From: Salinimicrobium sediminis | GTDB lineage: Bacteria; Bacteroidota; Bacteroidia; Flavobacteriales; Flavobacteriaceae | NCBI RefSeq assembly: GCF_900215295.1 | Contig: NZ_OCMF01000001.1 | Span: 992,001 to 1,056,000 of the forward strand | Direction of reading: 5' to 3' | Length of the DNA: 64,000 bases | Shown here: positions 33,918 through 34,515 of the stretch, in pieces | How positions within the stretch are numbered: position 1 is the stretch's first letter | Layout: the number at the start of each line of letters is the position of its first letter | The notes under the pieces: model-generated | Seen by the model: only the letters and a program-made list of their open reading frames with translations | What the model was told of the DNA's origin: nothing | Database searches by the model: none | Position numbers and translations under genes: made by a program

Positions 33918-34079
33918 GGATAATAATTTCAAAATTTCAAGCACCAAATTCCAATTTGTAACCAAATTAAGGCTACATAAAAATGTATTTGTTGAGAAGG
34001 GATACTCTACAGCCTATAAACTTCTGTCTACCCTCCGGATGTTTTGAAGTATCACTATACCAATTTAATTACCTTTTTA

Positions 34080-34131
34080 CCCCTTTTGGAATTTGGAATT
34101 TGAATAATTGGAAATTAAAAAAGCTCCTTGA
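34080..34131 (+). repeat. 52-bp direct repeat, copy 1
   Basis: The stretch starting CCCCTTTTGGAATTTGG and ending CTCCTTGA is identical to 34377-34428. It covers an AT-rich lead-in and the first arm of a terminator hairpin. A similar GGAATTTGG motif in inverse orientation lies at 33944-33958. Confidence 0.9.
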
Positions 34132-34188
34132 AAAGGGAGCTTTTTTAGAGGCATCGAGCGTCCCGATGCATCGGGAGAACCGCTGTAC
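34114..34188 (-). repeat. Unit A: terminator plus tRNA-Cys 3'-end remnant with palindrome
   Basis: A hairpin (AAAAAAGCTCC ... GGAGCTTTTTT, ~34116-34146) is followed by GAGGCATCGAGCG (34148-34160), which is identical to the 3' end of the tRNA-Cys gene. The palindrome TCCCGATGCATCGGGA (34161-34176) comes next, then GAACCGCTGTAC (34177-34188), again identical to the tRNA. The palindrome replaces the 5 bp GATTC of the T-arm. Read in tRNA direction the unit is a T-arm/acceptor fragment plus terminator. It has no D-arm or anticodon arm and is not a functional tRNA. Confidence 0.85.
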
Positions 34189-34260
34189 CAGGTTTTTTTC
34201 GGTTATGAATAATTACCTAAAAATTCTTTTTAATACCTCAGAATATTTAAAATCCTGAAT

Positions 34261-34332
34261 AAAAAAAGCTCCTTGAGAAGGAGCTTTTTTGGAGGCATCG
34301 AGCGTCCCGACGCATCGGGAGAACCGCTGTAC
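34261..34332 (-). repeat. Unit B: second terminator plus tRNA-Cys 3'-end remnant
   Basis: The hairpin AAAAAAGCTCCTT/AAGGAGCTTTTTT (34262-34290), GAGGCATCGAGCG (34292-34304), the near-palindrome TCCCGACGCATCGGGA (34305-34320, one base different from unit A) and GAACCGCTGTAC (34321-34332). The pitch from unit A is 144 bp, and to the real tRNA 152 bp. It lacks the 52-bp lead-in present in front of unit A and the tRNA. Confidence 0.85.
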
Positions 34333-34376
34333 AATTTATTCAAAACGACAAGATGTAGTTTGAACTTCCTTTATTT

Positions 34377-34428
34377 CCCCTTTTGGAATTTGGAATTTGA
34401 ATAATTGGAAATTAAAAAAGCTCCTTGA
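34377..34428 (+). repeat. 52-bp direct repeat, copy 2
   Basis: Identical to 34080-34131. It runs into the terminator hairpin of the intact tRNA-Cys gene. Confidence 0.9.
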
Positions 34429-34442
34429 GAAGGAGCTTTTTT
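34414..34442 (-). terminator. Terminator of tRNA-Cys
   Basis: A 13-bp stem AAAAAAGCTCCTT/AAGGAGCTTTTTT with loop GAG begins at the last base of the encoded CCA end (34442), so the tRNA transcript ends at once after its 3' end. Confidence 0.88.
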
Positions 34443-34515
34443 GGAGGCATCGAGCGGATTCGAACCGCTGTACAAGGTTTTGCAGACCTCTGCCTAGCCA
34501 CTCGGCCACGATGCC
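34442..34515 (-). tRNA. tRNA-Cys (anticodon GCA)
   Basis: Read on the minus strand from 34515 the cloverleaf is complete. The acceptor GGCATCG pairs with CGATGCC; the D-arm is GCCGAGTGGCTAGGC; the anticodon stem GAGGT/ACCTT (one G-U pair) holds loop CTGCAAA with anticodon GCA; the T-arm AGCGG-TTCGAAT-CCGCT is normal; the discriminator is U as expected for tRNA-Cys. CCA is encoded (34444-34442). The length is 71 nt plus CCA. It carries Cys to UGC/UGU codons. Two fragments of its 3' end lie downstream (units B and A). Confidence 0.97.

Follow-up and report, generated by a model that had tools for sequence, protein, structure and literature searches.

The window, a 64,000-nucleotide stretch of Salinimicrobium sediminis DNA, contains an array of tRNA-Cys sequences whose features all lie on the minus strand. 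An intact tRNA-Cys gene (anticodon gca, 34442-34515) was called by ARAGORN and matches Rfam RF00005 with 61.5 bits. Because the gene is on the minus strand, "downstream" means lower coordinates, and the order in the direction of transcription is tRNA-Cys, hairpin, spacer, truncated 3' end, hairpin, spacer, truncated 3' end, hairpin. The terminator-like hairpin of the tRNA gene itself (34414-34442, inverted repeat I8) belongs to the first unit and is followed by the unit 1 spacer (34333-34413), which is of the type containing CTACATCTTGTCG and lacks a nuclease ORF. Sequence comparison then places a tRNA-Cys 3' remnant, running from the variable loop to the acceptor 3' end, at 34291-34332; in it a 16-bp hairpin, TCCCGACGCATCGGGA (34305-34320), stands in place of five T-loop bases, and we refer to such an insert as a plug. 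A further terminator-like hairpin (34262-34290, inverted repeat I7) and the unit 2 spacer (34189-34261, of the type containing AACCGAAAAAAACCTGG) lead to the second plugged 3' remnant (34147-34188), whose 16-bp plug, TCCCGATGCATCGGGA (34161-34176), is a perfect palindrome. The array ends with a terminator-like hairpin seen in repeat analysis and folding (34116-34147) and a lead-in repeat (34069-34115, direct repeat D1) in common with 34366-34412. By eye, both spacers resemble spacers in the congener G300.

The two truncated copies had been recognized in the first-pass annotation, together with the 25 bases that each shares with the 3' part of the tRNA (13 + 12 bases), the replacement of GATTC (plus strand) by a palindrome in both, and the near-regular pitch of 144 and 152 bp, and our comparison reproduces all of this. 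Repeat analysis supports the terminator hairpin proposed for each unit, with folding showing one; a terminator scanner called none of the hairpins, probably because the U-run forms part of the stem. The duplicated lead-in, which only the first and third units have in common, is also real (34069-34145 and 34366-34442, 88% identity). A chance origin is excluded, since the window has two occurrences of the pattern CCCGANNNNTCGGG where shuffled sequence gives a mean of 0.04. A chance or generic repeat is ruled out for the exact 16-mers of the plugs, which within the 3.48-Mb genome are confined to this array, although the broader palindrome class is dispersed. On folding of the minus strand, the plug forms a 6-bp stem with a 4-base loop atop the remains of the T-stem, and in a longer stretch the terminator hairpin comes next. 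One remnant folded with its terminator has a z-score of -4.7.

A pattern allowing any insert between the T-arm halves finds plugged tRNA-Cys remnants in four of the 12 genus genomes: two in S. sediminis, five each in G007 and G300, and one in G306. Copy number therefore ranges from 0 to 5 within the genus, and the number of units differs between species. Outside the genus, G206 has one decayed plugged copy. In a family search of 397 genomes, without G300, the plugged form was found in five genomes of three genera, against one match for the reversed control; the decayed G206 copy does not match the pattern. G220, with three matches in a separate search, is outside the genomes examined. Two spacer types are apparently common to S. 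sediminis and G300 (by eye), so the Cys units seem older than the species split; spacers also differ between species. The earlier proposal that the replacement preceded the duplication is upheld and extended, since kin of the plugged units occur in other species and genera. A nuclease ORF had been predicted in the G007 Cys array from its long pitch; this was ruled out, the array consisting of five plugged units. At the G206 tRNA-Cys locus (L062), toxin-antitoxin-like ORF pairs lie between repeated unplugged tRNA-Cys 3' ends (by eye).

Remnants of this kind are not confined to tRNA-Cys. For each of the 42 tRNA genes of the S. sediminis genome, partial copies were sought as exact matches of at least 11 bases to the gene itself, lying no more than 700 bp away and outside tRNA genes. 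Twelve sites serving 13 of the 42 genes carry remnants, with 41 such matches against one for reversed queries (the Asn array being counted for both Asn genes). They lie 3' of Ala(ggc), Arg(tct), Asn(gtt), Cys, Gly(gcc), His, Leu(caa), Phe, Pro(tgg), Thr(tgt) and Val(gac), and 5' of one Met tRNA. Judged by eye, a hairpin is present in 29 remnants and absent from one truncated Pro end. In 3' remnants the plug sits in the T-loop or T-arm, the anticodon arm or the variable loop, in 5' remnants mostly in or near the D-loop, and some remnants are plugged in two arms at once.

More elaborate arrays were seen elsewhere. In G300, about ten 5'-half remnants with D-loop plugs are arrayed upstream of tRNA-Pro(ggg) (L084), and eleven palindrome units, mixed with other repeat families, are arrayed downstream of tRNA-Leu(tag) (L083). 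At a tRNA-Thr, a tRNA-His and a tRNA-Asn (L067, L070 and L079) the plug is nested by eye, a TCCCGA..TCGGGA hairpin lying inside a second repeat, GAGAAG..TCGA[AG]GGGA, that is itself flanked by an inverted copy of the tRNA 3' sequence.

The first-pass annotation had offered a REP-like element as one origin of the units. This holds for the palindrome class to which many plugs belong; the exact 16-mers occur only at this array. The motif TCCCGA-N2..10-TCGGGA has 19 sites in the S. sediminis genome, and six fall no more than 500 bp from a tRNA, in a zone that makes up 1.0% of the genome (P = 2.6e-8). The remaining 13 of the 19 lie more than 500 bp from any tRNA, and the class itself is REP-like by virtue of this dispersal. 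Across 12 genomes the motif has 5-49 sites each, against 0-3 for the reversed control.

Pairing within the plugs is conserved. Of 67 distinct inserts found within partial tRNA copies, 57 have a stem of 6 bp or more, and the mean stem is 6.2 bp against 3.7 when shuffled; this pool gathers all loci, some of them fetched by the palindrome, and is hence partly biased, while the 42-gene survey and the phylum loci chosen by protein (below) are free of such selection. Each of pairs 1-6 forms in 23 or 24 of the 24 distinct 16-base T-loop plugs, which come from tRNAs for Ala, Cys, Phe and Pro; this set omits three of 27 distinct plugs whose length is not 16 nt. Compensatory C-G/T-A exchanges occur at pairs 1 and 2, and pairing is kept across tRNAs and orders. 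At the base of the plug it is thus the stem that is kept and not its sequence.

Four arrays of the S. sediminis genome (Arg, Asn, Leu and Phe) hold GIY-YIG genes of about 80-96 codons; one of the two in the Leu array is interrupted. In 3' arrays of the genus, the gene nearest the intact tRNA starts 43-152 bp past it and is followed by the next remnant. The S. sediminis genome has 14 GIY-YIG genes, 11 of them small, and eight of these 11 lie within 1 kb downstream of a same-strand tRNA (P = 2.8e-16 if genes are independent; 4.6e-8 when counted as four of seven loci). All eight proteins examined match Pfam PF01541 above its cut-off, and three also match T5orf172 weakly. An alignment of 13 sequences (A2) has invariant Y5, Y16, G18, R26, H30 and E64, of which we take the Y, Y/G, R and E residues to be the catalytic GIY-YIG positions. 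The tRNA-type proteins thus carry both the domain match and the residues of the GIY-YIG superfamily. By sequence, their nearest solved relatives are UPF0213 proteins and SLX1 structure-specific nucleases. Eight proteins had no match in NCBIfam and four had none in PADLOC, and PHROGs gave weak homing-endonuclease and endonuclease matches for one of four. Carriage by phage was considered and rejected, the one Phe-type protein tried being without a match in phage records.

The nuclease genes are maintained by purifying selection, as dN/dS is 0.05-0.22 in 24 of 43 pairs, the ratio being undefined in the other 19. A tree of 66 proteins splits, with support of 100/99, into 28 that have no tRNA visible nearby and 38 others. 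It leaves out GIY-YIG proteins shorter than 60 or longer than 150 aa and has few columns for its number of rows; from a longer GIY-YIG list, 63 small or doubtful places were taken into the analysis. The side of 38 comprises every tRNA-labelled row, a tmRNA-associated type and a few unlabelled rows. The nucleases cluster by tRNA: the labels require 10 changes, where the minimum is 9 and the shuffled mean 28. Asn and Arg each form one side of a branch, and Phe (three changes) and Leu (two) are broken by rows whose tRNA is not seen in the available stretch.

In two genomes, G300 (L184:909-1850, contig C2) and G007 (L174:708-2259, contig C21), a GIY-YIG gene lies some hundred bases behind the tmRNA called by ARAGORN. 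At L184 a broken copy of the tmRNA end follows the gene (by eye), an arrangement as at tRNA genes. Other small GIY-YIG genes lie away from tRNAs, inside arrays of other REP-like hairpin repeats (L202, L173, L205 and L204, by eye); RAYT genes sit among REPs in Proteobacteria likewise.

The association extends across the phylum. A profile of the tRNA-type proteins matches 246 of 395 genomes at E <= 1e-8, some of which may be of the other type. Among the best 29 loci outside the S. sediminis genome (its own locus, L223, having been removed from the 30 best), a same-strand tRNA is present in 25 and a partial copy in 25. Among 20 low-ranked loci, drawn from the last 23 matches listed after removal of three in genomes already sampled, the counts are 18 and 17. 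In total, a partial tRNA copy lies beside an intact tRNA at 42 of 49 GIY-YIG loci, from 12 families. A copy was accepted at 11 matching bases in the 42-gene survey, the named Phe loci and the best 29, and at 12 in the low-ranked 20; the plugged state was judged by eye in both phylum sets and is weak in two of the 17 low-ranked copies (L273 and L279). At 16 named Phe-type loci, several of them cut by contig ends, there is a same-strand tRNA in 13 and a copy of at least 11 bases in nine. Loci with copies include those of Maribacter, Christiangramia, Aurantibacter and a Chitinophagaceae MAG; in the MAG both T-stem and plug differ and the architecture is unchanged.

The order is also found in reverse. 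At Leu(caa) of G301 and G307 and at Met of G302, a 5' half-remnant is followed by a GIY-YIG gene and then by the intact tRNA, the half-remnant lying on the promoter side with its hairpin in or beside the D-loop. This mirror arrangement suggests that insertion takes place within the tRNA gene and that the displaced half is restored.

Occupancy of a single site is mosaic among relatives. G000, G300, G302, G306 (where no plugged copy was found) and G307 have the nuclease gene behind tRNA-Phe, and G007 shows the beginning of it ahead of a run of N; G299, G301, G305 and G241 have tRNA-Phe with no nuclease gene behind it, and G303 and G304 were left out because of contig ends. The tRNA-Phe site is therefore filled in some relatives and empty in others, and tRNA-Cys varies likewise, with remnants in the four of 12 genomes. 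In the genus tRNA-Phe loci (L253-L271), CCA is encoded in all four empty genes and missing in four of six occupied ones. Possibly the cassette-borne tRNA-Phe 3' end lacks CCA. As a general mark of occupancy, loss of the encoded CCA is suggestive at tRNA-Phe and not strict.

We propose that the Cys array is an ORF-less member, decayed or non-autonomous, of a Bacteroidota-wide class of mobile cassettes seated in tRNA genes, and we give this reading a probability of about 0.6. Hypothetically, a full cassette enters a tRNA gene and brings with it a new end of that gene, which keeps the tRNA whole. The end that originally belonged to the host would be pushed off and become a remnant, separated from the gene by the cassette and, in most cases, a small GIY-YIG gene; at the Phe, Asn, Arg, Leu and Met cassettes the nuclease ORF does lie between the gene that would have been rebuilt and the end that would have been displaced. 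The tRNA and terminator sequences of different units are too similar to tell a foreign end from a native one. An arm of the remnant would be broken by a GC-rich hairpin plug, often of the dispersed REP-like class. Spread would most likely come about by homing, with the nuclease cutting empty alleles, and arrays would grow or shrink through breaks or through unequal recombination of the repeated units. Most probably the plug serves to disable the remnant, whether as a target of the nuclease or as a tRNA-like structure; it is also plausible that it marks an end acted on by a structure-specific nuclease. Since the Cys units contain no nuclease gene, their tie to the GIY-YIG cassettes is drawn from the common architecture and the plug, and they would have descended from an ORF-bearing cassette. 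The suggestion of repeated site-specific integration made in the first-pass annotation thus stands in part: insertion at tRNA ends recurs across the genome and the phylum, but the companion enzyme is a GIY-YIG nuclease in place of an integrase, and the units in the window are too short to encode one.

However, several observations run against the cassette reading. Not one Salinimicrobium Cys unit that was read has a nuclease gene, and eight of the 12 genus genomes have an intact tRNA-Cys only (two of the eight being about 75% complete). Unplugged tRNA-Cys 3' ends are present in G206, one 5' remnant beside the G301 tRNA-Leu is unplugged, and seven of the 49 phylum loci have no partial copy. The 43-nt remnant RNAs alone fold with z-scores of -1.85 and -0.63, a modest gain over shuffles. 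At tRNA-Phe, about 56 bp of tRNA end and terminator are identical behind the intact gene and in the units, which makes self-immunity of the intact gene to the nuclease, and hence simple homing, hard to explain. The same identity between units weakens the idea that the plug guards against deletion by recombination.

Other explanations draw on parts of the same evidence. It is possible, if distinctly uncertain, that transposition is directed by hairpins, an SLX1-like structure-specific GIY-YIG protein recognizing hairpins or cruciforms and moving or inserting palindromes into tRNA-like arms, with plug-only arrays mobilized in trans; plugs would then be seen only in remnants because insertion into the sole intact tRNA is lethal. 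The kinship of the nucleases with UPF0213 and SLX1 proteins fits such a process, as do the small GIY-YIG genes of the genus that lie inside REP-like hairpin arrays (by eye), the several remnants with plugs in two arms, and plug stems that vary in sequence and remain paired. However, the GIY-YIG genes of those REP arrays belong to a clade apart from the tRNA type (100/99), and no target-site duplication or empty plug site was shown. In a rather more doubtful extension of the cassette reading, a structure-specific GIY-YIG nuclease and the plug would cooperate, the plug being the element's recognized or protected end and ORF-less arrays being moved and amplified in trans. The relation would parallel the dependence of REPs on RAYTs, but would have arisen independently, from a different enzyme and from the arms of tRNAs.

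Ordinary tandem duplication of a tRNA 3' end and its terminator by replication slippage, with REP-like palindromes inserted by chance and nuclease genes as bystanders, would agree with the differing numbers of units between species and with the 13 palindrome sites far from any tRNA. We consider it unlikely, as the remnants at 12 sites of one genome nearly all have a hairpin (by eye), a given tRNA has kindred nucleases and a plug at the same position in different genera, and mirror cassettes exist on the 5' side. The array might also consist of selected small RNAs or tRNA decoys, comparable to the E. coli tyrT repeat RNA, and the retained pairing of plug and arm and the terminator-like hairpin of each unit are what such a role would predict; yet the range of 0 to 5 copies within the genus, the spacers that differ between species, and the lack of any promoter-like site in a sigma-70 scan of the array (a model not made for flavobacterial promoters) render it improbable. 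Although tRNA 3' ends are classic attachment sites, we reject scars of a tyrosine-integrase island as highly improbable on the size and form of the units. These measure about 94-157 bp, or about 350-470 bp with a GIY-YIG gene alone, there is no room for an integrase in the unit sequences or among the ORFs listed around the array, and both the T-loop replacement and the 5' mirror cassettes misfit duplication of an attachment site.

If the cassette reading is correct, tRNA and tmRNA genes of Bacteroidota seat a very small and common selfish element, one that leaves the host gene functional and marks the part it displaces with a hairpin. This would account for some of the REP-like DNA between genes in these bacteria, and tiny nucleases, each tied to one tRNA gene, would be on offer for study. 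The cassettes look like a little-noticed kind of mobile element. In the open-access literature, with subscription papers and preprints outside our scope, we recognized no description of tRNA-seated GIY-YIG cassettes or plugged tRNA remnants in Bacteroidota, and the available portions of that literature gave no precedent for the hairpin plug.

Several known systems nevertheless share features with these cassettes. Behind the E. coli tyrT gene there are 178-bp tandem repeats with tRNA-Tyr 3' ends, comparable to the tandem tRNA 3' ends of the Cys array; to our knowledge they have neither the hairpin plug of that array nor the nuclease gene of the cassettes. The double-hairpin and GC-cluster elements of fungal mitochondria are short mobile hairpins inserted in RNA genes, and in this they recall the plug; they are mitochondrial, and we know of no tie between them and tRNA remnants with a nuclease. 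The REP/RAYT system of Proteobacteria combines dispersed short palindromes, as TCCCGA-N2..10-TCGGGA is here, with a small nuclease-like gene, but its enzyme is a Y1 transposase of family PF01797 and not a GIY-YIG protein, and REPs are not tRNA remnants.

Among phages, the GIY-YIG homing endonuclease SegB lies beside phage tRNA genes and is reported to be required for the tandem amplification of a segment that contains tRNA (PMC13096335, available portion). The likeness is a GIY-YIG nuclease adjoining tRNA genes; in SegB, however, both protein and locus are of phage, and plugged remnants are not described in that portion of the source. The closest described architecture, as far as the available part of the source extends, is that of the fungal mitochondrial mobile ORFs (mORFs) in atp6, atp9, cox2 and nad3 of Glomus and in atp6 of Allomyces macrogynus (PMC3630166). 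There, a nuclease gene (GIY-YIG for atp9, LAGLIDADG for the others) brings a replacement 3' end for the host gene; the resulting hybrid is expressed, with the native end remaining downstream of the ORF (PMC3630166). Nuclease ORF, replacement end and displaced native end thus have their equivalents in the proposed tRNA cassettes, which would be a bacterial counterpart of these gene-end-swapping elements. Unlike the mORFs described in that part of the source, the tRNA cassettes sit in bacterial tRNA and tmRNA genes, have an ORF of only 80-100 aa, and include a hairpin-plugged displaced end, versions on the 5' side and arrays that lack an ORF, as at tRNA-Cys.
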